A DNA stretch of 64,000 nucleotides from a bacterium SCSIO 12643 (GCA_024398135.1 CP073750.1:1178001-1242000), one strand, 5' to 3'; positions 10,107 to 27,973 are shown, counted from the stretch's first letter. The notes: a model not told the origin generated them from the sequence alone. Made by a program: numbers and translations.

Positions 10107-12941
10107 CTACTCTAAGAGCAGTTGAATAGTCTTTTGACTTCTCAATGTTTTTATACTTAAGAAATAAACTCCTGGAGCCTCATTAAGCTCAATCTTAGCT
10201 TGCGAAGTATTCTGTATTTTCTTTCTATAAATAAGCTTCCCCTGGACATCTGTAACCTTTAGTTCTACATTTGAAACTTGCTTTTCAAACACCACATTAA
10301 AGATATCCGAAGATGGATTAGGATATACTACCAACTTTACATTGGGTTCCAATTCACCTATCCCAACTTTTGTTATCGAAACACATGCTGAAGTATCGAC
10401 ACATCCATTTTCCGTTAATTCCACAGCATAATTCCCATTTTTTGTTGCTGTAAAACTCATTAAAGTTTCATTCGAAATGGGACTATAATTATCATCACAA
10501 TCTAACCATTGATATGTCGCATTAACATTATTTGATGTAATCGTAACTTGATTCACAGAAACCGTCAAATCCGAGACTTTTGTTATTGTCAAGTTCAACG
10601 TAATAACACTATCGCATCCTTTTGAATTGATAAGTGTATGTGTAGCTGAGTTATTTGACATCGTATAAGTATTCCCATCTATCCAGGTATAACTATTACA
10701 AGCAGTTATGACATCTATTCCAGAATTCGGATAGTTTATTGTCAAATCCAATGTTACAACAGAATCACAGCCATTCATATTTGTAAGAGTATACGTAGCT
10801 GTATTATTTGATGAGGTATATGTATTTCCATCGAGCCAGGTATAACTATCGCATGCTGATATCACATCGACTCCTGTATTTGAATGATGTATTGTAAGAT
10901 CTAACGTCACTACAGAATCACAGCCATTCGTGTTTGTCAAGGTATATGTAGCTGTATTATTCGATGAACTATAGGTATTCCCATCGAGCCAGGTATAACT
11001 ATCACAGGCAGATATTATATCTACCCCTGTATTTGAATGATGTATTGTCAAATCAAGTATTATTACCGAATCACATCCATTTACATTCGTCAGTGTATGT
11101 GTAGCCGTATTATTCGATGTTGTATAAGTATTTCCATCGAGCCAGGTATAACTATTACATGCCACGATAACATCTGAGGTCAAAGAATTTAATATAGTTA
11201 AATCTAATGTCACCACAGAATCACAGCCTACTGAATTGGTTAATGTATATGTTGCCGTATTATTCGAATAGGTATATGTATTTCCATCTATCCACACGAT
11301 ACTATCACAGGCAAATAATGTATCCGTACTTGAATTCGAATTTATAATAGTTAAATCCAGGCTCACAATAGAATCACATCCTACCGAATTTACCAGCAAG
11401 AACTCGGCAGTATTATTCGATGAGGTGTACACATTTCCATCAATCCATGTATAAAAATCACATGCTGTTTGTACATCAGTAGCATAGGTAGGCATACATG
11501 GACTCAATTTTTGAACAAAAAAATCATAATCCCCATTCGACACGATGTTAGCTGTATCAGCTCCAGGTGCGAAGTCTACAACTCCACGGAAAACACCAGT
11601 TGAATATATATTCCCAATTCCATCTACAGTTATTGAATTTCCCTCATCATATTGCAATCCTCCCATATTCTTTGCCCATAAAAAACTTCCATTAGAATCT
11701 AATTTCTGAATAAATATGTCTCTAAGTCCGTTAGAAGTAAGAACTGTAGAATCCAAACCAGGATCAAAATCTACGGCCCCAGAAAAATAACCTAGTATAT
11801 ATGAACTTCCTAAGCTATCGACTTTTATAGAACGACCTACATCAAACCCTCCATCTCCCATGGATTTAGCCCAGACAAAATTTCCATTTAAATCCAGTTT
11901 TTGAACATAGACATCATCACTCCCTCCTGAAATAACATTAAAGACTCCAATTCCAGGATCCATATCTACAGTCCATTCAAAATACCCAGTTGAATATACG
12001 TTTCCATAAATATCTACAGCGATAGAATATGCCACATCATAACCAATCCCTCCCATTCTTTTGGCCCATAAAAAATCACCATTAGCATCCAGTTTTTGAA
12101 TAAAAATATCCGTATTTCCAATTGAGGTAAGATTGTAAGTACCGATACCCGGATCAAAATCTACAGTTCCATTAAATACTCCTGCAGAATAAACATTCCC
12201 TAAATCGTCAACAGTCATTGAGTACCCAAAATCACCGCTTGTTCCTCCAAATCTTTTAGCCCATAAAAAATCACCATTACTATCTAGCTTCTGTACAAAA
12301 ACATCGCTATAACCTGCCGAAACAAGATTAGATACTGCTACACCCGGATCAAAATCCACCGTCAATCTAAAATAACCCGAACAATAAATATTACTTTGAT
12401 TATCTATAATAATCGAAGTTGCTTTATCCAGATTAATTCCTCCTATTTGTTTTACCCAAATAAAATTACCATTGACATCTAGTTTGAGAATAAAACAATC
12501 AATATTTCCATTAGAAATAAGATCAAAAACACCTATACTAGGATCAAAATCCACTGTATCTTTAAAGTTCCCTATTACATAAACATTTCCTATACTATCT
12601 ACAGTAATTGAATTACCAATATCTGAAGAGTTTCCTCCAATACTTTTAGCCCAAATAAAGTTACCATTGCTGTCCAGTTTTTGAATAAAAACATCATCAC
12701 TCCCATTTGAAGTCATATTCACCACTCCCGTTCCTGGATCAAAATCTACCGTCCCCCTATAAGATCCTGTAGTATAAACATTTCCAAAGTCATCAACAAC
12801 AATAGAATTCCCTTCTTCCCAAGCACTACCTCCAACACCTATAGCCCATTCATAGGCTACACTTTGTGCAGTTAATTGAGATAAATTTAACATACTCATC
12901 AAGGGTAATAATAGCAGTATTAGTGTAATTTGTAATCGCAT
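10107..12941 (-). CDS. Large T9SS-secreted protein: SBBP-type propeller, 51-residue Cys repeats, sorting domain
   Basis: 944 residues. A signal peptide (about 1-25) is followed by seven units of about 65 residues, each with a GG..D.G.SI.VD..GNVY.TG.F.GTVDFDPG pattern ending in FIQKLDSNGNFLWAK, typical of SBBP/beta-propeller repeats. Six repeats of about 51 residues follow (consensus CDSYTWLDGNTYT, then GCDSVVTLDLTI), each with two Cys that could form a disulfide. A type A T9SS sorting domain (about 865-944) starts at VVYPNPSSD. It is probably exported through T9SS and displayed on the surface as an adhesin-like or structural protein. Monocistronic. Confidence 0.9.
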   Translation of the reverse strand: MRLQITLILLLLPLMSMLNLSQLTAQSVAYEWAIGVGGSAWEEGNSIVVDDFGNVYTTGSYRGTVDFDPGTGVVNMTSNGSDDVFIQKLDSNGNFIWAKSIGGNSSDIGNSITVDSIGNVYVIGNFKDTVDFDPSIGVFDLISNGNIDCFILKLDVNGNFIWVKQIGGINLDKATSIIIDNQSNIYCSGYFRLTVDFDPGVAVSNLVSAGYSDVFVQKLDSNGDFLWAKRFGGTSGDFGYSMTVDDLGNVYSAGVFNGTVDFDPGIGTYNLTSIGNTDIFIQKLDANGDFLWAKRMGGIGYDVAYSIAVDIYGNVYSTGYFEWTVDMDPGIGVFNVISGGSDDVYVQKLDLNGNFVWAKSMGDGGFDVGRSIKVDSLGSSYILGYFSGAVDFDPGLDSTVLTSNGLRDIFIQKLDSNGSFLWAKNMGGLQYDEGNSITVDGIGNIYSTGVFRGVVDFAPGADTANIVSNGDYDFFVQKLSPCMPTYATDVQTACDFYTWIDGNVYTSSNNTAEFLLVNSVGCDSIVSLDLTIINSNSSTDTLFACDSIVWIDGNTYTYSNNTATYTLTNSVGCDSVVTLDLTILNSLTSDVIVACNSYTWLDGNTYTTSNNTATHTLTNVNGCDSVIILDLTIHHSNTGVDIISACDSYTWLDGNTYSSSNNTATYTLTNTNGCDSVVTLDLTIHHSNTGVDVISACDSYTWLDGNTYTSSNNTATYTLTNMNGCDSVVTLDLTINYPNSGIDVITACNSYTWIDGNTYTMSNNSATHTLINSKGCDSVITLNLTITKVSDLTVSVNQVTITSNNVNATYQWLDCDDNYSPISNETLMSFTATKNGNYAVELTENGCVDTSACVSITKVGIGELEPNVKLVVYPNPSSDIFNVVFEKQVSNVELKVTDVQGKLIYRKKIQNTSQAKIELNEAPGVYFLSIKTLRSQKTIQLLLE
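10580..11505 (-). repeat. Tandem 153-bp coding repeats
   Basis: Six in-frame units inside the T9SS gene. The central ones are in exact 153-bp register: the string GAGCCAGGTATAACT (plus strand) starts at 10833, 10986 and 11139. Near identity of the middle copies at DNA level suggests recent expansion, so copy number may vary between strains or be mis-assembled. Confidence 0.9.
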
Positions 12942-15662: not shown

Positions 15663-16859
15663 TTAATCAAAATCGGAGGTCAATTTGAACCTTAGTACAC
15701 GGCCGTTTCCAGAATCAGCTACGTATACAATTTTATCGAGATATGCGACCGCACGTGGCTCATTGAATTGCGTTAACTCAATTCCCGTACCTCCAAATGA
15801 AACCTTCACATATTTCTTTACTCCAGCTCCCGGTGGTGGCTTAATACCTTCCAATCCGTTTGAAGTAAATTGATATAACGAATCTTTCTCTTGATCTACC
15901 ACAAAGATAAAACCTGTTCCATCACCAGACATTGTAACATCCACAGGATGAGAAAATTTACCCGGTTCATCGATTGATCCATCTGCTAATGTGGTATCCA
16001 AAGGTATAATATCATTTGGATTATACTCTACTCCGAAATCAGTTTCGTTATAAGTAATTCCTCTTACACGATATAAATTATCTGCAGATTGATCCATCGA
16101 AGTAAATATAAAATGACGCGCAAAACTCGCACTAATCTGCGGTGGCTGCGCAAAAGAAGCCATTCCGAAAGGTCGTTTAAAGAAGTCTTTAAACACCCCT
16201 CCTCTGGTTGTCACACTAATCGGAGTAATATATTTATCGTCTGCTGAAAACAATAACACCGCATTATCAGGGCCTCCAAATTGATTTACATTATTACTAA
16301 ATCCAGTTCTGGATACATAATATTCGTTTAATGCAATGATCGCAATATCCTGAAATTCCACAGCCAAATCCGAAGATGAGAATGTGTTTTTATGATAAAA
16401 CGGATGTACAATTTCCTGAACTACTTTAGCATGATTCAAACCATATCCTAACGCACCTTGAAGGTCTAATCGGTAAATGCATGAAAAAGTATATGAACTC
16501 CCATTGATCACCGTGTCTTTCGTCCCAATGGCTAAAAGATTTAATCTACGGTCCTGAACAACTGTTTTGACGCCAGGAATACTAAAACTATATAACTCCC
16601 TACCACTTTGGTCTAATCCAACAATTTGTTCACGTCCCTGATCCGCTACATAAATCAAATCATCAAACCCAGCCAACACATCAGTTGGTTTTACAAATTG
16701 ATCCAACACTGGCTGAATCGGCACATAAGCAATTGGTTTATTTTGAAAATCCGGAACATCAATAAAACTCACATCAGTTTTATTTCCAAAGAAATCATCA
16801 CAACTGGTACTTACCACCATTAATGATAAAATCGCTCCTATTAAAAATACATTTCTCAT
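15663..16859 (-). CDS. NHL-repeat-like beta-propeller lipoprotein
   Basis: 398 residues from the ATG at 16859. A 37-codon longer frame exists but overlaps the upstream gene and lacks a signal. A lipoprotein signal peptide ends at Cys20 (VSTSC). Repeats of the form FSHPVDV..DG.GFIFVVDQ.KDSLYQF and FNEPRAVAY.DKIVYVADSGNGRVLRF identify an NHL-like propeller filling most of the protein. It is probably anchored in the outer membrane. It begins 1 bp after the PorV/PorQ-like gene, which argues for a shared complex or pathway. The ligand is unknown; NHL propellers bind proteins, RNA or polysaccharide. Confidence 0.85.
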   Translation of the reverse strand: MRNVFLIGAILSLMVVSTSCDDFFGNKTDVSFIDVPDFQNKPIAYVPIQPVLDQFVKPTDVLAGFDDLIYVADQGREQIVGLDQSGRELYSFSIPGVKTVVQDRRLNLLAIGTKDTVINGSSYTFSCIYRLDLQGALGYGLNHAKVVQEIVHPFYHKNTFSSSDLAVEFQDIAIIALNEYYVSRTGFSNNVNQFGGPDNAVLLFSADDKYITPISVTTRGGVFKDFFKRPFGMASFAQPPQISASFARHFIFTSMDQSADNLYRVRGITYNETDFGVEYNPNDIIPLDTTLADGSIDEPGKFSHPVDVTMSGDGTGFIFVVDQEKDSLYQFTSNGLEGIKPPPGAGVKKYVKVSFGGTGIELTQFNEPRAVAYLDKIVYVADSGNGRVLRFKLTSDFD

Positions 16860-16860
16860 A

Positions 16861-17862
16861 TTACTCACGTATATCATTATTAATTGTAAATGAAAGTCCG
16901 AGAGACTGCTGATATCCCAGGTGATTGGTTGGAACCGCAGCGTAATCGATATATAGATCATGTGCTCCAATATGGGTACGTACTCCTACACCAAATACCG
17001 GCCAGTTATGCCCTGCCACATTTAGCTTATACCCCGCTCTGAAGAACAATAAGTTTAGATACTCAAATTCAGCTCCAATTCTAAAATTTTCCGCATTGTC
17101 TGATGGATGTTGTAGTTCAAAGTCCAATGCCAATGATTGATTTTTTCTCTTATAAGGTACCATAGACGCTCCCAGTCTAAAAACAGAAGATGATACGTAG
17201 TTATCCAATAAAACACCATTTCTATTAAAATCAACTTCCAGGTAGTCCCCCTTCAATGTTGAGTTTCCTCCGAAATTCTGTAACATTACCGCAAATGATA
17301 AGTCTTTCCAATCTGTCTGATACGCAAAACCCAAATCAATTGTGAATGTATGATTTTTATATTCCGCTAAACTCTCATTGATATAACGAATGGTAGACCC
17401 GAAAGCAAACATATCTGAGAGTCTTTTGGAATAAGTAAATCCAATTCCAACGGTACTCGCGTATACCTTTTGTCCAGTTCCATTCGGTTGAAATTCCGTT
17501 CTCACATCCATCTCTCCAGATGTTAAGAAGTTTACCGAAACACCATATGCAGCGGTATTTTGATTTGGCATTACTGCTGAAAAATATCCCTGATGAATTC
17601 CTGCTCCAACCAGATAACTGGAGTATGTGGCATTTAATCCTTTTAAATCTGCCGCATAAGCAGGATTCGAAAAGGTTGAATATCCTTTGGTATCAACCGC
17701 TACACTAGCTCCACCGATTCCAGCTGAACGCGGATTCATGTCATTTTTCAAGAAACTAAATGTAGCTAACCCCGCACGTTGTCCTCCCAAATTTGGCAAA
17801 ATTTGCGCCTGTACTGAAATACTCAATACGGTCAGGACCCATATGTAAACTAACCTTTTCAT
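16861..17862 (-). CDS. PorV/PorQ-type outer-membrane beta-barrel protein
   Basis: 333 residues with signal peptide (about 1-19, ending VQAQ). The N-terminal ATFSFLKNDMNPRSAGIGGASVAV and FSNPAYAADLKG are the hallmark of PorV/PorQ and related FadL-like barrels of Bacteroidota, followed by alternating amphipathic strands ending in a C-terminal aromatic strand. PorV carries T9SS cargo to the sortase-like PorU. This paralogue sits next to three T9SS substrates and a TonB receptor, so it may be a dedicated shuttle or transport barrel. It overlaps the TonB receptor gene by 1 bp. Confidence 0.85.
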   Translation of the reverse strand: MKRLVYIWVLTVLSISVQAQILPNLGGQRAGLATFSFLKNDMNPRSAGIGGASVAVDTKGYSTFSNPAYAADLKGLNATYSSYLVGAGIHQGYFSAVMPNQNTAAYGVSVNFLTSGEMDVRTEFQPNGTGQKVYASTVGIGFTYSKRLSDMFAFGSTIRYINESLAEYKNHTFTIDLGFAYQTDWKDLSFAVMLQNFGGNSTLKGDYLEVDFNRNGVLLDNYVSSSVFRLGASMVPYKRKNQSLALDFELQHPSDNAENFRIGAEFEYLNLLFFRAGYKLNVAGHNWPVFGVGVRTHIGAHDLYIDYAAVPTNHLGYQQSLGLSFTINNDIRE

Positions 17863-20690
17863 TAAAATTTAAAACTAATTCCGTATAAAAATTGACGTGG
17901 CGCTAAGTATCTCGCAGGGTCATCCGGAAGTTCTCCATTTTCCTCTGGACCTAAATAACGCTCATCTCTATATTTACTGGTCACATCGTCACCAGGCTCA
18001 TATCCTCGTCCGGTAATTGGATTTACCGTTTGTGCATTCTTATTGTTAAACAGATTTCTGATTTCGAAACTGAAAATCAAACCTGATTTTTTTTCTTTAC
18101 CTGTAGTAATCTGATAAGACAATTTTAAATCTGCATTAAACCAGGCCTTTCCACTCTTTGCCAAATATTGATCTAAGTCCGGCTCGTACAATGGACGTCC
18201 TAATGCATTTGTTCCCACCTGAACTTGTGGAGTATATCTGTACCCCGAAGAATATCTCATTGTAGTAAATGCCGTAAAACCATGTAACACTTTCATACTG
18301 GTATCCGGCTTAAATACCAAATTCCATTTGATATCCCATGGTCTATCCCAAGCCAAATATTGCTCCTTGGTCAGTGCCACCTGTCCGTTTTGCTCAATTT
18401 GCAGGCCTGACTCACGTGCAGAATTTGACTTCCCACGCGCCACTTGATATGCTACGTTAAATGAGGTGCGGAAATGTTTCGCAGGTCTCCAGAATATGCT
18501 GAACTCAATTCCATAAATTCGTGCGTAATCCTGATTGATATACATTGATTTTGAAACCGGTCTTCCGGTTTGATCTTTTACAATCACACGTCTGGAAACG
18601 ATATAATCAAATCTGTTGTTATTAAACGCAGCAATCGACATCGCTAAGTCCTTCGTAATTTGAGATTTCATCCCCAATTCGTAATTCACACTCACCTCTG
18701 GATTCAAATTTGGATTTCCCAGACTGCTTAAGAATGAATTCTGCTGATAACGTAAATCCAATCCCTGATACACAAAACGCGGATGTGGTAATCTCATGAA
18801 GTGACCATAGTTAAAGTATAATACATTGTTATCCGTTACCGGGAATGACACATTAATTTTCGGAAGTAATCTCGCTTTGAATCGTTTTCCAAACATTCCG
18901 AAAGTTTCATTCATGTAATCCTCTCTAATCTGGTCCACTACCGGAGAATTCGGGTCATTTACTACATCATCAATATAGGTTCCCTGAGACCAGTAGTTCA
19001 ATCTTAAACCTATTGTGGCTACAATTCCTTTGTAAGTGATTACATCCTGCGCAAATAATGCCCCATTACTTGGTTTTACTTTCCAGATATCACTGGTCAC
19101 TCCAACACTGGTTGAAGGTGTTGTCAAAGTATCATTAATTACGATTGGTGCACCTACCCATGGCTTATCTACATCGGTCCATTGATATTCCAGGAAGTGA
19201 TGTTCGAAACCGAAACTATAACGGTGTGTTTTATTATCCGGATAGTATCCCACTTTTGCTTTAATAGTATAATCCTGTACGTAGTGATCGTGCCAGGTAC
19301 CAGAAATACCTCCATTGTTAATTAACCATGGCCCAGGTTGTGTAAATACAATTGGATCTCCAGGATTAAAAATCCCAACCGGATTGGTTACAATATCATC
19401 TTCATCTAAGATTTGATCAACTGTTTCGGTTCTAAAAGGACGACCATTTGCATCTGCTCTTAAATTGGTAAACAATCTACCTAAAGAAGCATTCACACTC
19501 CAATTGTTATTAAAGAAGTGATTGAAGTTTAAAACTGTTAAGTTCGATTGCTGTGTATAGGTAGTTGCATTATCCAGATTTAAACTTCTTCTATATTGAA
19601 ACCCTGGTGCCAACACCTGATCAAAACCTACGATCTGTAATGTTCTAGAATTTTGATTGATTTTTAAACTATGCTGATTCGTAATAAAAAATTTGGTTCC
19701 CGGTTTCACCTCATATACCAATTTGATGGTATTTGAATACGAGTTATTGTAACGTGGTGCCCAAATGGAATCATTTGAAGGTAGTAATGAACTGTGCAAT
19801 TGATTGGCCGTAGGACCAAAATAATCATCCGTTAAATTCGCATCAATTGAAAAGAAGTAACGCAGTTTCTTTTTTGTAAAAGGAAATGCACCACCAAAGT
19901 TTAGATTGAAAATATCTGTATTCCAGGAATGCGCGGCATCTCTGTCAAATCCAAGGTTATCACGTGTCCATGAACCTCCAATTTCAAATTTATCGCCACC
20001 TTCACGAATCTTGGTTGAAATTACACCAGCCATACCACCAGCCTGATCTGCACCAGAACCACCTGTGGTAATTTGAATATCCTGAATAGATGAAGATGCT
20101 ACACTTACTCCTGCTCCTGTTCCTGCCAATGGATCTTCTACTGATATTCCATCTACCACATATTGTGTTTCGTAAACTCTACCACCACGAATCGAAATAC
20201 CATCCGTAGTTTTATTTACTCCGGCTTGCATAGAAGCTACTTCTGTCACATCACGCGCATTCATTTCGGACAATGCTTCTTGCGAAATTTTAACTTCTGA
20301 AGATGCAGCTTCCAAATCAATAAGATTTTTCTCCCCTACAATCTCTACTGCTTTTAATGTTTGAGATCTTGGGCTCAATTCGGCATTTAGGGTAGTTGTT
20401 TCTCCATTCGCAATATGAATACCGTTAAACACTTTATCGGCATAACCAATAAAACTTACTTTAATCGAATAATCACCGGGTTTAATATCCGTAATGGTAT
20501 ATTTCCCATCAATATCTGTGGCAGTTCCTTTATAGGTTCCCACAATCATTACTGTTGCACCAATCAAGGTCTCCTTTGTTCCGGCATCTTTAATTACCCC
20601 AGATAAAGAACCTTGCGCTTTTGCCTGACCTGAAAAAATCAAGGTCAAAGCCATCATGCAGATCGTAAATATTTTACCAGTTAAAGTCAT
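17862..20690 (-). CDS. TonB-dependent receptor with N-terminal CarboxypepD-reg-like domain
   Basis: 942 residues. Signal peptide (about 1-25) ends at GQAKAQ. A carboxypeptidase-regulatory-like beta-sandwich follows (about 27-112: GSLSGVIKDAGTKETLIGATV ... DGKYTITDIKPGDY), then a plug domain (about 120-230, with GISIRGGRVYETQYVVDGISVEDP) and a 22-strand barrel to the C-terminal Phe. The domain order is that of SusC-like and peptide/oligosaccharide receptors, but no SusD partner is present. Instead it is fused by overlap to a lipoprotein gene upstream (17 bp) and a PorV/PorQ-like gene downstream (1 bp). The substrate is not deducible; the nuclease nearby makes nucleic-acid fragments a hypothesis. 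Confidence 0.92.
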   Translation of the reverse strand: MTLTGKIFTICMMALTLIFSGQAKAQGSLSGVIKDAGTKETLIGATVMIVGTYKGTATDIDGKYTITDIKPGDYSIKVSFIGYADKVFNGIHIANGETTTLNAELSPRSQTLKAVEIVGEKNLIDLEAASSEVKISQEALSEMNARDVTEVASMQAGVNKTTDGISIRGGRVYETQYVVDGISVEDPLAGTGAGVSVASSSIQDIQITTGGSGADQAGGMAGVISTKIREGGDKFEIGGSWTRDNLGFDRDAAHSWNTDIFNLNFGGAFPFTKKKLRYFFSIDANLTDDYFGPTANQLHSSLLPSNDSIWAPRYNNSYSNTIKLVYEVKPGTKFFITNQHSLKINQNSRTLQIVGFDQVLAPGFQYRRSLNLDNATTYTQQSNLTVLNFNHFFNNNWSVNASLGRLFTNLRADANGRPFRTETVDQILDEDDIVTNPVGIFNPGDPIVFTQPGPWLINNGGISGTWHDHYVQDYTIKAKVGYYPDNKTHRYSFGFEHHFLEYQWTDVDKPWVGAPIVINDTLTTPSTSVGVTSDIWKVKPSNGALFAQDVITYKGIVATIGLRLNYWSQGTYIDDVVNDPNSPVVDQIREDYMNETFGMFGKRFKARLLPKINVSFPVTDNNVLYFNYGHFMRLPHPRFVYQGLDLRYQQNSFLSSLGNPNLNPEVSVNYELGMKSQITKDLAMSIAAFNNNRFDYIVSRRVIVKDQTGRPVSKSMYINQDYARIYGIEFSIFWRPAKHFRTSFNVAYQVARGKSNSARESGLQIEQNGQVALTKEQYLAWDRPWDIKWNLVFKPDTSMKVLHGFTAFTTMRYSSGYRYTPQVQVGTNALGRPLYEPDLDQYLAKSGKAWFNADLKLSYQITTGKEKKSGLIFSFEIRNLFNNKNAQTVNPITGRGYEPGDDVTSKYRDERYLGPEENGELPDDPARYLAPRQFLYGISFKF

Positions 20691-22119
20691 TGTTTAATAT
20701 CTGATCAAATAATATTTCTAAATCACTGATTTGCTGATCCATCTTATACAGCTGAACTGAAAAGAAATATTGATAAATATTGTTATTTCCGTCTTTTCTT
20801 CTTGCACCTACAGTACTTGGTCCGGTCCATCCACCTTGTTTTACCAAATGGCCGATATATACTTCTTCGGCTCCAATAGACATATAGAATGGTGATACTC
20901 CAGATAGAATAAATGTCGGACTTAAATCCGGGTAATTGGGACCGAAAGTGGATGAAATGGTACTATCAGGCACCAATCTCGCCTGTCCATTTGAAGAGGA
21001 TAAACTATCAATAGGTAACGTACTTGAAATTCCGGAAATATCCTGCCCTTTGGTAAATGAAGTTACAATCAAAGATTTTCCTCCGTTGTTACTAAAAACC
21101 TGCAATGAAGGTGCTGCAAATTCCAATAAAACGTCTTTACGACCTGTTACTACATTAGTGAAGTTAGATTCATCCGATGTGAATACGATATCATCATAGT
21201 GTTCTAATAATAAATCAAATGTAGGCGACCAAAAGGCAGGCTGATATTTTCCTCCATCGGTAGCATAATCCAACGCATCATAACTAGTCATGTTATTATT
21301 CATCACCCCTTTATAAACATCAGTAGGTGGTGCCGACAACCCGGTTACATATAATAAATCTGAAGTTTTAGGTTTTATGTATAACACATCTGATGTATCA
21401 GGTTCACTTTCCGCATTGGCAAAATCAACTACTTTAATATAAAAGTGATTGGTATCTCCTACTACTAATCCGTTAAGCTTTTCAGTCAGTGGCAAATCAT
21501 TCGTTCCATAGTAAACATGAGCATCAACTGTTCCTGTTTGACTACTATTGACAGGAACTATAGATAGCATTTTTTCATTTACATCAATTTCCATCCAATC
21601 TCCTTGATTGGCCTTCAAATAAGCTTTTATTATAGTTTCATCACCGTCTACATCCACTGCGTTCCATCTAAATGTGGTCACAATATTTACGGTGTCAACC
21701 GGGAAGCCTTTTTCATTGAACAAAGCTACCGGTGGTGTATTCTTTAATGGGACTTTTAAGTATGCCGGGGTTGGGTCTATCAAACTATCATTATCGATAG
21801 CTCTGACGTAAAAATCAATATCGGTGGTATCCGATCCGGGTTCAAGGGTAAAGTTAAATGTACTGTCATTTTGGGTAGTAAATACCCAATTTTGGTTGTC
21901 TAAAGAGATTTCATATCCTTTTATATATCCATCTTTATCTGAACCAAACCAACTTAAAAATACCACACTATTCAAGCGGTCATCACCGGTTAGGTTGATG
22001 CTCTCCGGAGTCAATACTGTATCTGGAGCTAAATTGGCATTTTTCTCTAAAGTACGCTTACAACCGAAAGCCGTAACTAATAAAGAAATGAAAACGATGT
22101 ATTTAAAATTCAATTTCAT
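20674..22119 (-). CDS. Surface lipoprotein with fibronectin-like domains
   Basis: 481 residues. The lipoprotein signal ends at Cys20 (VTAFGC). Two Ig/fibronectin-like beta-sandwiches occupy about 45-240: the first contains LNSVVFLSWFGSDKDGYIKGYEISLDN with a repeated DKDG/DVDG acidic turn, the second VTTFRWNAVDVDGDET. The C-terminal half (about 255-475) is alpha/beta, containing LLYVTGLSAPPTDVYKGVMN, and is not recognised; it might be a degraded Rossmann-like or transglutaminase-like domain. It precedes and overlaps the TonB receptor gene by 17 bp, the place where SusD-like partners usually sit, but it has no SusD features. A terminator separates it from the next gene upstream. Confidence 0.75.
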   Translation of the reverse strand: MKLNFKYIVFISLLVTAFGCKRTLEKNANLAPDTVLTPESINLTGDDRLNSVVFLSWFGSDKDGYIKGYEISLDNQNWVFTTQNDSTFNFTLEPGSDTTDIDFYVRAIDNDSLIDPTPAYLKVPLKNTPPVALFNEKGFPVDTVNIVTTFRWNAVDVDGDETIIKAYLKANQGDWMEIDVNEKMLSIVPVNSSQTGTVDAHVYYGTNDLPLTEKLNGLVVGDTNHFYIKVVDFANAESEPDTSDVLYIKPKTSDLLYVTGLSAPPTDVYKGVMNNNMTSYDALDYATDGGKYQPAFWSPTFDLLLEHYDDIVFTSDESNFTNVVTGRKDVLLEFAAPSLQVFSNNGGKSLIVTSFTKGQDISGISSTLPIDSLSSSNGQARLVPDSTISSTFGPNYPDLSPTFILSGVSPFYMSIGAEEVYIGHLVKQGGWTGPSTVGARRKDGNNNIYQYFFSVQLYKMDQQISDLEILFDQILNNDFNW

Positions 22120-22151
22120 TTTGATCCGTTCTATTCAAAAAAGGAAATGAA

Positions 22152-22179
22152 AAACCGGGTGTAAGGTCTACACCCGGTT
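22152..22179 (-). terminator. Intrinsic terminator between the two halves of the surface cluster
   Basis: Near-perfect stem AACCGGGTGTA / TACACCCGGTT around a short AGGTC loop. On the minus strand it is followed by a T-rich stretch. It lies 10 bp after the stop of the 22189-24420 gene, so the downstream lipoprotein-TonB receptor unit must use read-through or its own promoter in the 69-bp gap. Confidence 0.8.
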
Positions 22180-22188
22180 ATTTATTTT

Positions 22189-24420
22189 TTAGTGTTTAAT
22201 CACGATTTTTTCAATGGCTAATTGATTTCCTTCCATGTCAGTTACTTTCATTAAGTAAATTCCATTTTGAAGCGCATCAACACCAATTTGTCCACCATTT
22301 GAGATTACTGAAGTTTGGTTTACCAAACGTCCAGATAAATCTAAAATAGATACCATGAAGTTTCCTTGTAATCCATTCACCGAAACAGTTACGTTGTTTG
22401 CTGCAGGATTTGGATATACAAATGTCTCAACAGTATTTCCATTGATTTCAACTACTGCCGTAGGCAATTGTAGATTAGTAGTATCTAAATCAATTGCAGT
22501 TCCATTTTCAGATAATCCAATGATATCATCATTGTTACGTGGCATTACTTTATAGTTACCGAATGTATAATACATCATACCCATTAAAGTATCCATTTGC
22601 ATATCTGTAGAAGTAATTACTGTATCAACTTCCATTTGACCATCAGTAGTATACCAGGTTCCGTCAGCAACCAAAGACACCCATAAAGAAGAGAATGCAT
22701 TGTTTGATTGACGACCAGTTGTTACTCTCGTATCAGTTGTAGCAGATGCTGAAGTACCAATTGCATAGTCACCGAAACCTAAGTTTGCATTGGTGATAAA
22801 CAATTTACCTCCGGTATTTACCATTCCTACAGCCATACCTTCATACTTCTCAATTTCGTTTGTTGAGTGTAAATTCGCATCAGATGGATCGAAATATACC
22901 ATTTCGTTAGGAACAATATTTCCAGTTTTCACCACATCGATTACTTGCATACGTGTCAAACCATAGTTTTCTTCAATAACACCTGTTACAGTTACTTCAT
23001 GCGTTCTTAATAACAATACCAGGTCAGAGTTTCCAACTAATGGAAGACCACCCCACTCAGTAGCACCTGGTTGTTGGATGTAAACATATCCTAAATCATA
23101 ATCTTTAGAAGAAGCACAAACCACTCCTGTTACTGTTACTGTATCACCCATGTAATAAGAAGCATCCTCATTGTAATCCAATACTTTTTGGATATCCACG
23201 ATTGTTAAACCGTTATCTCTAACCGTATAAATCTTCACATTTGGACTAGTAGCTCCTGAAGGAGTTGCAGGATACTGAGAAGTGTTTCCATCGTTATCAG
23301 TTGCTTTGATATAATATCCTACCATCTTTCCGTCTGCAAATGCAGGAATATTAGCGGTGTACTCATCAGTTGACCCACCTACTAAAGTAAAGTTAGCGCT
23401 TGTGAAAGAACCACCTGCGATATCATCAGTATAGAATAATTCAACAGAAGTAATTGTTCCGTCAAAATCAACTACTTTACATGTAACTTCTGGAGTTTCA
23501 GTACTTGTTGGTGCAATAGGATTTCTAGTTGCATCAGAAATTGCTGGAGGAGTTACTCCAACTACATAGTGAGACGGGCTGAAAGGATTCAACTCATATC
23601 CACGACCATTTGCTCCAGTACAACCGTTTTCTGAATGTAATACAATACCTATTAATGTATCATAAACCAAACCTACTGGTGGCGCTACAAAATTTCCTGT
23701 AGTAGATGGTGAACTTGGATTCACAGTTGTGTGTCCTGGTAATTTCTGAGCTAAAAATCTATCAGAAATGTTAATTGTGTTACCATTAGCATCTGTTACA
23801 TCAATACTTACACGGCTACCTCCAGAGAAGAAGTTTACTGCAGTTACTGTAACATTATTAATCATTACTAAAGACCCCTCAATTGGCTCTCCAGTTTCTA
23901 ATTGATTCACACGGTTTCCATCATTTAAATCACCTACACTCACTACTCTTGGTTCCGGAGCTGTAGTTGTACCAATTGCATTTACCGCCTGGTTGTTTAA
24001 TGGATAGATTTGAGTTTCACCCTGGTAACGACCAACAGTACCAGTTACTTCAACGATATCACCAGCTACTAATGAGTTCAAAGCCGTTACGGGTTGGTTA
24101 CCCGAACCATCGTTAAATACACCGTGAATCTGAATTCCTGCGAAGTCACCACCTTGTCCGGCATTTGCTGTATCTAAAAGGTGAATTGCTGCACGATATC
24201 CTCCTGCAGTTGAACTTGATGGAATCTCAGTTAAGTTTCCATCATGCATAACGATTCCTCTTACTTTTACAGTATCACCCATGTAAGCTGAAGAATCATT
24301 ACAGTTTGCCAAATCTGCTGCAGATACATATTGCACATCATAAATACTCACGTTATTTACTTGAGCAAATCCAAAAGCAGATGAAATAGCAAAACCTAAT
24401 AATAGTAAAGTTTGTTTCAT
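22189..24420 (-). CDS. T9SS-secreted protein with OB-fold-like repeats
   Basis: 743 residues with signal peptide (about 1-19). Two or three beta-barrel units contain the pattern GDTVKVRGIVMHDGNL..., GDIVEVTGTVGRYQGETQI and GDTVTVTGVVCAS.....LGYVYIQ. They resemble the OB-fold modules found in extracellular nucleases such as YhcR and in DUF5689-type surface proteins. An Ig-like segment follows the first module (about 300-400). The C-terminus is a type A T9SS sorting domain (about 668-743, starting FVYPNPAANN). No catalytic residues are recognised. It lies 8 bp behind the next T9SS gene and near a secreted nuclease gene, so nucleic-acid binding is plausible but unproven. Confidence 0.82.
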   Translation of the reverse strand: MKQTLLLLGFAISSAFGFAQVNNVSIYDVQYVSAADLANCNDSSAYMGDTVKVRGIVMHDGNLTEIPSSSTAGGYRAAIHLLDTANAGQGGDFAGIQIHGVFNDGSGNQPVTALNSLVAGDIVEVTGTVGRYQGETQIYPLNNQAVNAIGTTTAPEPRVVSVGDLNDGNRVNQLETGEPIEGSLVMINNVTVTAVNFFSGGSRVSIDVTDANGNTINISDRFLAQKLPGHTTVNPSSPSTTGNFVAPPVGLVYDTLIGIVLHSENGCTGANGRGYELNPFSPSHYVVGVTPPAISDATRNPIAPTSTETPEVTCKVVDFDGTITSVELFYTDDIAGGSFTSANFTLVGGSTDEYTANIPAFADGKMVGYYIKATDNDGNTSQYPATPSGATSPNVKIYTVRDNGLTIVDIQKVLDYNEDASYYMGDTVTVTGVVCASSKDYDLGYVYIQQPGATEWGGLPLVGNSDLVLLLRTHEVTVTGVIEENYGLTRMQVIDVVKTGNIVPNEMVYFDPSDANLHSTNEIEKYEGMAVGMVNTGGKLFITNANLGFGDYAIGTSASATTDTRVTTGRQSNNAFSSLWVSLVADGTWYTTDGQMEVDTVITSTDMQMDTLMGMMYYTFGNYKVMPRNNDDIIGLSENGTAIDLDTTNLQLPTAVVEINGNTVETFVYPNPAANNVTVSVNGLQGNFMVSILDLSGRLVNQTSVISNGGQIGVDALQNGIYLMKVTDMEGNQLAIEKIVIKH

Positions 24421-24428
24421 GTTCTTGC

Positions 24429-26573
24429 TTATTTAATTATTAAAAATTTAGATTTATAAATCTTTCCAGTTTCCAGATCTTCTACCGTAAAAATGTAAAG
24501 TCCTCTGGCCAATATCTGATTATCTTGTGTTAATAAGTCCCAAGCATGCTCTCCTCCAGAGAACACATTTTTGTTCGGATCTTCTGCTCCAAAGGTTTGG
24601 AACCAACGGATATCTGTACCGTTATAATCCTGATCGTGATAAATTTCATCTAATAAATCACCTGCGGTGGTATACACTCTAATTTTGCATCGCTCTGGTA
24701 AGTTCGCAAAAATTAATTTTCTACTTTCTTCCTGGAACGAGCTATTTCCTTCCCATGCGGCTCCGGCATAATATGGATTTGGATACGCAAACGGACCATT
24801 TTCTTTTAAATCTTCAACCGCATCTTTTCCTGCAAATACTCTGAAGTTATTAAAATTTGGACTCGACTCTAATGACTCTAAATTAGCTCCCGGATTTCCT
24901 CTATCAAAAGCAGTTACTGCAACCGCATATTGCCATCCATTTTGAATATTTTCAATACTATATTTATATACATAAACATTCGTATCCCCTTCAAAGGTTA
25001 CTGGTTTTTCCAAACGGATGGACTCAAACCCTATATCATAAAATAACCCGTTGTTTGGAATATCATTTTCTCCCACTTTCACGAATTCCAATTTCGGTGG
25101 AGTTTGCGCTACATCAAAACCTAGCTTGGATGTATATACTCTATATCCTTCAAAATCCATTTCTTGTGTAATCGGATCCACAGATGACTCGCTATTATCT
25201 GCCCAGTACACATCAATACGATTATCGGTAGCATCAATCCGTGTTCTAGGTGAATTTGGTGGAGCAGGCAAAATATAACGTGTAATACGTCCATTTCCAT
25301 CCACATCCTCTCCCGGATCCAGTTCTCCATTAAAGTTTACATCCTCACCATTGTACGCTGTTTGCGCCCAACCCGCATTCTGCATAAAATATTCTTTCTG
25401 TTCCAAAGTATTTATTGAAGGATCTTGTCCATCGTCCTTCTTTGGCCCAAGAATAAATGCGTATGTTACATTGATTGTATCACCTGGCGCAAAATCTCTA
25501 AATGGTCCTACGGATACCAAATCTGATCTATTTCCTAAATCATTGATTTGTTCTTGAATAGACTTTGCACTACAATTTCCGTTAGTTGACGAGTTTTGAT
25601 CCCAACATAAAGTATGGTTCAACCCTGCTGTCATCTTCTGATATCTTTGATTGTCCGACTGCGGCAAAAAATAAATTGGATCTGCAGTATTATTAAACTG
25701 CCAAACATTGTAATGAATATTCAATTCATTCAACAGATTCCCGTTATCATCAACCAATCCCGGATGATGGAATCCATGTTTATCTTCAGCTCCCAAAAAC
25801 TTTTGTCCAACATATGATTGGGTAAAACCTATATCACCTCCCTTATCATAACAATATGACATGTATAAAGAATCGAGATAGCCATTCCCCCCTTTGTTAT
25901 AAAATGCTGCACCTCCAGAACCCGCTGGAGTGATATTAATATTTCTTACAACGGTATTTGCCCAGAAAGAGAAATGTGCACTATCAATCGTTGAGTTACT
26001 TCTGTTAATGATATAGAAGTTGGTAATTACAAAGAAGTTACTGAAGGTATAATTCCAGTTATAGGTATGTCCGATAACTTCAACATTCAACGGATTATCA
26101 TGTCCTTGAATTGGAATTTGTGTACCTGGAATTAAAATATTGGAATCCGTAAATGTAGATACGAAATCTTCGTGAGACACAGCATCCGGAGAGAAAAACG
26201 GACTATCAAAATACGAAGATCTAATTTTTAGCGGGCCACTAACATTGGTAAACTCAAACCCTGCACGTCCGGTAGCATAACCTTGTGGTGCGTCATAAGC
26301 AGAAGTTGAAACTAAAACCTGACCGTTAACAATACCTCCGAACCAGAATCCGGATTCGAACATATGCTCTACACCTGATCCGGCAGGATATTCACAACTT
26401 TGAGAACCACTACCGTCACGATATCCTCTAAATGCGTTTCCAAATGTTCCAATGTTCGTTACGTTTAAACGTACATCGGAGACTTTTGTCGTTTGTTCAT
26501 CAAATTGCTGAGCCTGAACTGAAAACCCGATGAATATCCCTAAGGATAGTAGTAAATAAAGCCTCTTTCGCAT
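24429..26573 (-). CDS. Large T9SS-secreted protein with Ca-binding-like loop
   Basis: 714 residues with signal peptide (about 1-21, ending VQAQ). The body is an extracellular all-beta protein rich in Gly, Asn and aromatic residues. At about 400-425 an acidic loop (DVNFNGELDPGEDVDGNGRI) has the DxNxNG and DxDGNG spacing of dockerin/thrombospondin-3-type calcium loops. The C-terminus (about 610-714) has FAYPNPYYAG, a FlgD-like fold and RGLYIFTVED, typical of T9SS sorting. No enzyme motif was found. It is the first gene of a transcript with the OB-fold-like protein, preceded by a good -7 element. Confidence 0.82.
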   Translation of the reverse strand: MRKRLYLLLSLGIFIGFSVQAQQFDEQTTKVSDVRLNVTNIGTFGNAFRGYRDGSGSQSCEYPAGSGVEHMFESGFWFGGIVNGQVLVSTSAYDAPQGYATGRAGFEFTNVSGPLKIRSSYFDSPFFSPDAVSHEDFVSTFTDSNILIPGTQIPIQGHDNPLNVEVIGHTYNWNYTFSNFFVITNFYIINRSNSTIDSAHFSFWANTVVRNINITPAGSGGAAFYNKGGNGYLDSLYMSYCYDKGGDIGFTQSYVGQKFLGAEDKHGFHHPGLVDDNGNLLNELNIHYNVWQFNNTADPIYFLPQSDNQRYQKMTAGLNHTLCWDQNSSTNGNCSAKSIQEQINDLGNRSDLVSVGPFRDFAPGDTINVTYAFILGPKKDDGQDPSINTLEQKEYFMQNAGWAQTAYNGEDVNFNGELDPGEDVDGNGRITRYILPAPPNSPRTRIDATDNRIDVYWADNSESSVDPITQEMDFEGYRVYTSKLGFDVAQTPPKLEFVKVGENDIPNNGLFYDIGFESIRLEKPVTFEGDTNVYVYKYSIENIQNGWQYAVAVTAFDRGNPGANLESLESSPNFNNFRVFAGKDAVEDLKENGPFAYPNPYYAGAAWEGNSSFQEESRKLIFANLPERCKIRVYTTAGDLLDEIYHDQDYNGTDIRWFQTFGAEDPNKNVFSGGEHAWDLLTQDNQILARGLYIFTVEDLETGKIYKSKFLIIK

Positions 26574-26629
26574 ATCAAATTTTGTTTGTTAGCTGCTTAT
26601 TTATCCGTCCCTTTTTTAAAACGGGGCGA

Positions 26630-26637
26630 CAAATGTA
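26630..26637 (-). promoter_or_regulatory. Candidate -7 promoter element of the 26573-22189 operon
   Basis: Minus-strand TACATTTG is a perfect TAnnTTTG match 56 bp ahead of the ATG. No TTG at the expected -33 distance; a TACG/CGTA inverted repeat (26648-26660) lies there instead. Confidence 0.5.
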
Positions 26638-26680
26638 ATGCGTTTTTTACGTTCAGCGTATTTTATAGATAATTAAATTG

Positions 26681-27973
26681 TTAATTCTGAATTACTCTAA
26701 CTACTTTTTTATTCCCAGAATTGTCCTCTACTTTCACCAATAGCACTCCCTTCGGCATATCAGAATACTCAAAAGTAGTTTCTCCTTGATGAACAATATC
26801 TTGATGTTTTAATAACGCTCCGGTGATACTGTAAATCTTAATCGTATAATTTCCTGATGGTCCAACCAATTTCCCGGAAACTCGATCACCTGGAGAGATC
26901 ATTTGAATGGCCCAATCGGATTGTACACTTTCTGCTACCGAGTTGGGTTGAGCTTCTGTAATAATCATATCCATAACTACTGGAAGATGATCACTTCCAT
27001 TATAGATGGCATCTAACACATTCGCTGGGACCGAATTATTTGACGGATTATTAATCGCGCTATTAAAATGGTTTCCATCATTCGCTAATGCCTTATAACT
27101 ATTACTCACATACTCTATACGATTTCCATTATCCTTAATATCCTGAGAAATCAACACAAAGTCAAAACGATCATCCAAACCTCCTCCACTTGCACATCCG
27201 TTTCCAACGCTACGGGTAGATTGAGTGTGTACATCTGCATATGCTCCGTTATTATTCCAACTGCCCATGCGATTTACAGGATCAATGAATTTCACCTGAG
27301 GGTTTGATGGGTTTACCAAATTCTGGAATGCAGCTTCAGATGCCGCATACACGTTAAAATCACCTGAAAAAATATAGTTCCCATTGATATTCTCATCTGT
27401 GATATATTTCATCACAGCCTGAGTCGCTTCATCTCTTTGATTTTCATTTGAACTTCCGCTTCCCGCTTTTAAATGTGCTACAAAAACGGTCAAAAAAGTC
27501 GTATCCGCACCTAAACTTAGATTGGCATCTTTATAATACAATTCAAATACATCAATCAATCGAATAATATTATCCCCCCCTACCTCTTTCCGAATTTGGT
27601 CGTTGCTTTTTAAAGCAAACATTTCACCGTTATAGAAAAATGCATTGGCTATACTTGATCCGGAAGAATAATTAAACGGAGCCATTTCATATTTGGTCTC
27701 TCCGTTCACATTTAAACATCGATCTAAAATCTTAGACGCATTGGATGGGTTAGAACCGACTTCATTACACGCTATCAAATCCGGTTGTACATGAGCAAAA
27801 ATAGTTTTCATGTATCCTTCCTTTGCCAAAGGAGAATTATTGGTATTGGTACAAAAACTTGTTTCGTTACGGTAATTCAATGTGTTGTAAGAAACAAAAG
27901 TAGCTACTTCCTGGTTTTGTGCCCAACCAAAGAATGGCACTAACACCATTAAAATCAATAACTTTCTCACCAT
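26681..27973 (-). CDS. T9SS-secreted endonuclease/exonuclease/phosphatase-family enzyme
   Basis: 430 residues. Signal peptide about 1-19. The EEP (DNase I-like) fold spans about 24-345 with the family motifs: VSYNTLN (Asn30), DLIACNEVG (metal-binding Glu71), FVAHLKAGS (catalytic His), FSGDFNVY (Asp-x-Asn), and the terminal SDHLPVVMDM (Asp-His pair). A short, degenerate T9SS-like sorting region follows (about 350-430, ending NKKVVRVIQN). This makes it an exported nuclease or phosphodiesterase; a lipid or sugar phosphatase role is possible for the fold. It is monocistronic with its own promoter and a palindrome at -33. Confidence 0.88.
   Translation of the reverse strand: MVRKLLILMVLVPFFGWAQNQEVATFVSYNTLNYRNETSFCTNTNNSPLAKEGYMKTIFAHVQPDLIACNEVGSNPSNASKILDRCLNVNGETKYEMAPFNYSSGSSIANAFFYNGEMFALKSNDQIRKEVGGDNIIRLIDVFELYYKDANLSLGADTTFLTVFVAHLKAGSGSSNENQRDEATQAVMKYITDENINGNYIFSGDFNVYAASEAAFQNLVNPSNPQVKFIDPVNRMGSWNNNGAYADVHTQSTRSVGNGCASGGGLDDRFDFVLISQDIKDNGNRIEYVSNSYKALANDGNHFNSAINNPSNNSVPANVLDAIYNGSDHLPVVMDMIITEAQPNSVAESVQSDWAIQMISPGDRVSGKLVGPSGNYTIKIYSITGALLKHQDIVHQGETTFEYSDMPKGVLLVKVEDNSGNKKVVRVIQN

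Follow-up and report, generated by a model that had tools for sequence, protein, structure and literature searches.

The DNA analysed here, called the window throughout, is a 64,000-nucleotide stretch of the bacterium SCSIO 12643 (GCA_024398135.1, CP073750.1:1178001-1242000), which has a 4.1 Mb genome assembled as one contig and, among named organisms, stands closest to Salibacter and other Cryomorphaceae-, Schleiferiaceae- and Vicingaceae-like Flavobacteriales. Computational analysis was directed at a locus of seven minus-strand genes (Table 1), which in an earlier note, made from the sequence alone, had been tentatively read as a surface system for cutting extracellular nucleic acid and importing the fragments. 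In order these genes encode EEP, a member of the endonuclease/exonuclease/phosphatase superfamily; T9b, from an unnamed family; OB, a cargo protein of the type IX secretion system (T9SS) with OB-fold domains; LP, a lipoprotein; TBDR, a TonB-dependent receptor; a PorV/PorQ-family barrel; and the NHL lipoprotein. Their positions and strand were borne out, except that the frame of the NHL gene (15663-16970) begins too early and its start was moved to near 16862, because the resulting 399 aa equals the length of its relatives and a lipobox (STSC) follows the ATG at this position.

Table 1. The seven genes of the locus, in their order on the minus strand (positions are those of the window).
Gene	Position	Strand	Description
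EEP	26681..27973	minus	430 aa with signal peptide and tail of T9SS type; accessory to core
T9b	24429..26573	minus	714 aa; unnamed family, calcium-type loop, T9SS-like ending; core
OB	22189..24420	minus	743 aa; T9SS cargo, OB-fold domains and Ig-like domain; core
LP	20674..22119	minus	481-aa lipoprotein; two Ig/FN3-like domains and GATase1/ThuA-like domain; core
TBDR	17862..20690	minus	942 aa; CarboxypepD_reg N-terminal domain, plug, TonB-dependent receptor; core
PorV/PorQ-family outer-membrane barrel	16861..17862	minus	333 aa; core
NHL-repeat propeller lipoprotein	15663..16862	minus	399 aa from ATG at 16862; core

From T9b onward the spacing is operon-like, with successive gaps of 8, 69, −17 and −1 bp and, if NHL begins at the internal ATG at 16862, a 2 bp overlap between the last two genes. 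EEP, on the upstream side, is separated from T9b by 107 bp. Inspection by eye revealed the motif TACATTTG ahead of both EEP (upstream of 27973) and T9b (upstream of 26573), and EEP may therefore form a separate transcription unit; the motif fits the Bacteroidota −7 promoter consensus, TAnnTTTG.

The arrangement of these genes proved to be conserved throughout the phylum. In the 80 lineage loci drawn from the genome collection, T9b, OB, LP and TBDR occurred in the same order and on the same strand in nearly all loci of sufficient length for order to be judged, and in most of these EEP lay ahead and the PorV-family and NHL genes behind, EEP being absent from some. One lineage carried just T9b-OB-LP-TBDR in a different genomic setting, and certain other Bacteroidia families retained only T9b-OB or T9b-OB-LP. 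T9b was found in 34 of the 148 Bacteroidia genomes of the class sample, and its profile matched, mostly near full-length, in 131 further genomes outside Bacteroidia in the phylum sample (n = 392). Twenty loci were taken outside Bacteroidia, each from a different family, and 18 of them contained T9b, OB, LP, TBDR, the PorV-family barrel and the NHL lipoprotein, all in the same order, the exceptions being one locus without a recognized OB (L180) and one with only T9b-OB (L179). Since this order is kept across families and classes, these six genes constitute an ancient core to which EEP is an addition. The earlier note had made its reading depend on the genes staying together in relatives, which they do.

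Such phylum-wide conservation of gene order indicates that the arrangement is more than a product of chance. The abundance of T9SS proteins in the genome is all that speaks for a chance or recent assembly without joint function, an explanation that is refuted by the order shared by nearly all long lineage loci and, in other classes, by 18 of the 20 families, and to which we assign a negligible probability. The host genome encodes 150 or more T9SS type A tails, so that T9SS cargo alone is ordinary in it. A further T9SS-type protein of 944 aa, encoded elsewhere in the window (10107-12941, minus strand), has a repeat region at its N-terminal end, along with several ACDSYTWLDGNTYT-type repeats.

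The affinities of OB bear most directly on function. Its T9SS tail is clear (53 bits versus a cut-off of 27; TIGR04183, 43.6 versus 23 bits), and in its structural model (pLDDT 85) residues 158-288 matched the anticodon-binding OB domain of AspRS (VIA-align; Z 10.3, rmsd 1.8 over 83 residues), so that the second condition under which the earlier note would have been refuted, structural models without nucleic-acid-binding folds, did not arise; the model also contains a T9SS C-terminal domain and an Ig-like domain similar to the one in PPAD. Of 21 members of the OB family, 12 matched PF01336 and 12 matched PF12869, both of them OB-fold families, and 20 resembled the OB region of the ExeM/NucH nucleases. 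For the whole ExeM/NucH protein the cut-off was not reached by OB (NF033681, 42.1 versus 300 bits), and a full nuclease of this type elsewhere in the genome was sought and rejected as a candidate, the sole two genome matches being the OB repeats of the locus itself. A match to DUF5689 was absent from the OB of the window and present in three of the 21 family members; in profile comparison, OB and DUF5689 proteins gave 96.9% (E 1.6e-10) against 26.6% in a control with LP, and by this sequence criterion the two are homologous. As a separate observation, a fragment of OB and a T9b-like tail precede the full OB gene in one locus (L032:6961-8115; also L052 from 12143), a partial tandem copy found in a congeneric bacterium.

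T9b gave no Pfam match. Its mean column identity is 60% (20 sequences), and within a calcium-type loop at residues 409-423 (G409-E-D-x-N...D423) positions G409, E410, D411, N413 and D423 are invariant. No library model of a sorting domain matched T9b above cut-off, and a T9SS-like ending was seen by eye from the pattern YPNPY...KFLIIK alone. Thus, of the T9SS proteins named in the earlier note, OB stands clearly and EEP marginally, its tail scoring 25.7 bits with TIGR04183 (cut-off 23) and missing the Pfam cut-off, while for T9b the assignment goes as far as this pattern.

LP, which carries a lipobox, had been placed in the slot of a SusD, and this did not hold: no SusD family match was obtained in 17 members, and the model (pLDDT 86) is beta-rich, not helical, with an alpha/beta C-terminal domain. 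The latter resembles GATase1/ThuA domains (VIA-align, Z up to 14.5), lacks a conserved catalytic Cys and is apparently inactive. Foldseek searches with the OB and LP models returned mainly generic Ig/FN3 matches, and sequence searches of the PDB with T9b and LP gave nothing useful. TBDR is a TonB-dependent receptor as judged from Pfam scores, its barrel (PF00593, 100.7 versus 27 bits) and plug (PF07715, 30 versus 23.9 bits) both exceeding the cut-offs, and its mean column identity in relatives is 67% (16 sequences); as a SusC/RagA protein it stayed below the cut-off of TIGR04056 (67.1 versus 368.25 bits). The PorV-like barrel belongs to the PorV/PorQ family (NF033709, 136.7 versus 90 bits) and reached neither equivalog cut-off (PorV, NF033710, 59.1 versus 250 bits; PorQ, 83.4 versus 220 bits). 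The NHL lipoprotein matched PF01436. In a Bacteroidia family keeping only T9b-OB, two other TonB-receptor-like genes lie directly behind this pair (L048:6652-10814), which suggests receptor exchange.

The EEP of the window itself fell below the Pfam cut-off for the EEP fold (PF03372), which was matched by 10 of 14 orthologues. Residues of catalytic type (N30, E71, H167, D205, N207, D271, D328 and H329) are invariant among the orthologues, and on these two grounds we assign the protein to the EEP superfamily. Related enzymes recur beside distant cores. Directly past NHL lie EEP proteins with T9SS tails in four loci (L162, L169, L174 and L175), an EEP protein without a recognized tail in L173, PLD proteins with T9SS-type tails in L164 and L168, the former also carrying DUF5689, and a nucleotide pyrophosphatase-type (NPP) phosphodiesterase in L167. 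When 60 genomes were searched with PF03372 and PF13091, an EEP or PLD gene was located within 15 kb of T9b in at least 29, a lower bound as positions were taken from the matches listed, compared with 3.5 expected by random placement, an approximately eightfold enrichment. This count includes one genome (G181) scored from its locus sequence, and in some cases the gene is on the opposite strand.

A second line of evidence comes from natural transformation. Riemerella anatipestifer no longer transforms when either of two neighbouring genes is missing: RA0C_RS04920, encoding a protein with DUF5689 and DUF5017, or RA0C_RS04915, encoding an outer-membrane protein with CarboxypepD_reg. Neither product is related to known transformation machinery (PMC8459023). 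TonB mutants also transform less, an effect that the authors attribute in part to iron (PMC8383284). In the Bacteroidia genomes we found a CarboxypepD-type barrel gene followed by a DUF5689 gene, adjacent in 19 of 20 loci (L192-L211, e.g. L205:5513-11242 and L211:1879-7269; the exception is L199). Near the pair, in 15 of these 20 loci, lies a gene for a 350-aa EEP protein of the PF19580 type, often divergent, which makes it a candidate for the nuclease of the transformation locus; the text of the DUF5689 paper appears to make no mention of it (PMC8459023). Orthologues of the window EEP themselves occur at the barrel/DUF5689 locus in L202, L203, L204, L215 and L216.

The two systems are distributed in a complementary manner. 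Among the 148 Bacteroidia genomes 34 carried T9b, 32 carried strong DUF5689 matches (E < 1e-30) and none carried both, where 7.4 would be expected (hypergeometric P 7e-5, genomes being counted irrespective of relatedness). In the phylum sample full-strength matches of the barrel were confined to Bacteroidia, and all T9b genomes save that of the window lay outside this class. Within one family (f86) one or the other system is present according to genus, with an EEP gene beside each. Orthology between TBDR and the DUF5689-linked barrel found no support past the superfamily level; in the window genome the barrel profile matched another gene best, and that match was partial.

Together, the homology of OB to DUF5689 proteins, the EEP family shared with the DUF5689/barrel locus and the complementary distribution join the locus to the DUF5689/barrel locus; this link and the recurrent EEP, PLD or NPP neighbours favour a nucleic-acid reading. 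We consider it somewhat probable that the predicted function of the locus is to capture extracellular nucleic acid and to import it across the outer membrane in a TonB-dependent manner. The nucleic-acid system suggested in the earlier note is supported to this extent by the recurrent phosphodiesterases and the DUF5689/barrel connection, the nuclease having turned out to be an accessory and not a part of the core. Several points weigh against such a function. The nominal P of 1e-20 for the enrichment of neighbours ignores relatedness, and around half of the cores lack a neighbouring EEP or PLD gene. Phospholipases and phosphatases, too, are found among EEP and PLD enzymes. The barrel/DUF5689 loci are equated with the Riemerella pair through its published annotation, clade structure weakens the observed exclusion, and the likeness between TBDR and the DUF5689-linked barrel stops at the superfamily.

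An alternative is a different ligand, such as phospholipids or phosphate esters, or a general type IX surface module, the nuclease-like genes being incidental or lipid-acting. The presence of phospholipases among the EEP and PLD folds, the existence of cores without a nuclease, the sharing of an operon by a PorV-family barrel and T9SS cargo and the commonness of T9SS tails in the genome would all agree with it. It is rather unlikely in our estimation, as EEP and PLD genes together occur near the core about eight times as often as expected and as the OB folds and the relationships to DUF5689 and to ExeM/NucH indicate nucleic acid.

If nucleic acid is the substrate, its purpose may be either transformation or nutrition, of which we slightly favour transformation-type DNA uptake. 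According to the first alternative, which we hold tentatively and at less than even odds, the core is, in much of Bacteroidota, an outer-membrane DNA-uptake machine for transformation that gave way in many Bacteroidia to the DUF5689/barrel pair. The exclusion of T9b and strong DUF5689 matches, the alternation between genera of family f86 with an EEP gene beside either system and the relatedness of OB to DUF5689 agree with this proposal, as does a core without nucleotidase or nucleoside transporter; on the other hand, the exclusion tracks clades and a secreted nuclease would also destroy DNA. ComEC was found in all 32 genomes tested, which lends weak support since ComEC is present in most bacteria. 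A secretin was encoded in 22 of the 32 genomes, that of the window included, so that a pilus route is conceivable, and the absence of secretin was for this reason rejected as an argument for an alternative DNA route. The genome of the window encodes one secretin (639-aa frame, G000:C1:1696520-1697020, outside the window), which may belong to a pilus- or type II secretion-like system.

The second alternative is nutritional: secreted phosphodiesterases would cut DNA or RNA, which would be retained by OB and T9b, and oligonucleotides would enter through TBDR and LP as a source of P, N and C. The recurrence of nucleases with two or more folds, together with an NPP enzyme, would suit this role, and Bacteroidota are reported to be widespread degraders of DNA in sediments (PMC8289736). 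We regard it as rather unlikely, because the core is devoid of nucleotidase, nucleoside transporter and phosphate genes, a nuclease is missing near many cores, and T9b, in contrast to typical nutrient loci, occurs as one strongly conserved copy.

The core may thus be a previously undescribed outer-membrane machine for the capture and import of DNA. In the mechanism we propose, T9b, OB and EEP would be exported via the T9SS, as the tail of OB shows for this protein and as we suppose for the other two, with the PorV-family barrel as a probable export helper and perhaps a shuttle. OB would bind DNA or RNA through its OB folds, as its fold and family suggest, and EEP, or elsewhere a PLD or NPP enzyme, would trim or nick the nucleic acid. 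The LP and NHL lipoproteins may hold the complex at the receptor, and TBDR would pass nucleic acid or fragments to the periplasm with TonB energy, ComEC presumably taking over at the inner membrane where DNA is meant for transformation. That the core represents an ancestral Bacteroidota machine for DNA uptake, TonB-driven, assembled by the T9SS and independent of pili, which the DUF5689/barrel version replaced in many Bacteroidia, seems somewhat unlikely.

How DNA passes the outer membrane in Bacteroidota is an open question, the two essential proteins of Riemerella lacking relatives in known systems (PMC8459023), and an undescribed phylum-wide operon is here tied to this pair through a domain family and a nuclease family that both have in common and through their complementary distribution. 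If nutritional, the locus would do for nucleic acid what polysaccharide utilization loci do for polysaccharides, in a phylum reportedly important in sediment DNA turnover (PMC8289736). The statement of the earlier note that no system with exactly this gene set has been described agrees with our searches, in which no such description was found in any title or abstract of the literature covered, most subscription papers and preprints lying outside that coverage.

Several known systems resemble the locus in part. Like the ExeM/NucH nucleases (NF033681), it combines an OB region with an EEP enzyme, which are joined there in a single secreted nuclease and are here separate polypeptides. With SusC/SusD it shares a TonB receptor with a CarboxypepD-like domain encoded directly after a lipoprotein, but TBDR scores far below the SusC cut-off, and LP is beta-rich with a GATase-like domain whereas SusD is helical. 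The PorV-like barrel is a member of the PorV/PorQ family by NF033709 and differs in being neither equivalog and in being bound in an operon to a TonB receptor. In Ca. Izemoplasma, multi-gene loci for the degradation of DNA outside the cell likewise group a secreted nuclease with uptake genes and contain ABC and phosphate transporters, none of which is present in the core of the window (PMC8289736). A further parallel is offered by the Riemerella RS04915/RS04920 pair, in which a CarboxypepD_reg barrel stands beside a DUF5689 protein of the kind to which OB is homologous, and loci of this type are linked to the same EEP family; the window locus differs from it in adding T9b, LP, the PorV-like barrel and NHL, in having a receptor of another subfamily, and in that OB is a T9SS cargo and not a lipoprotein.

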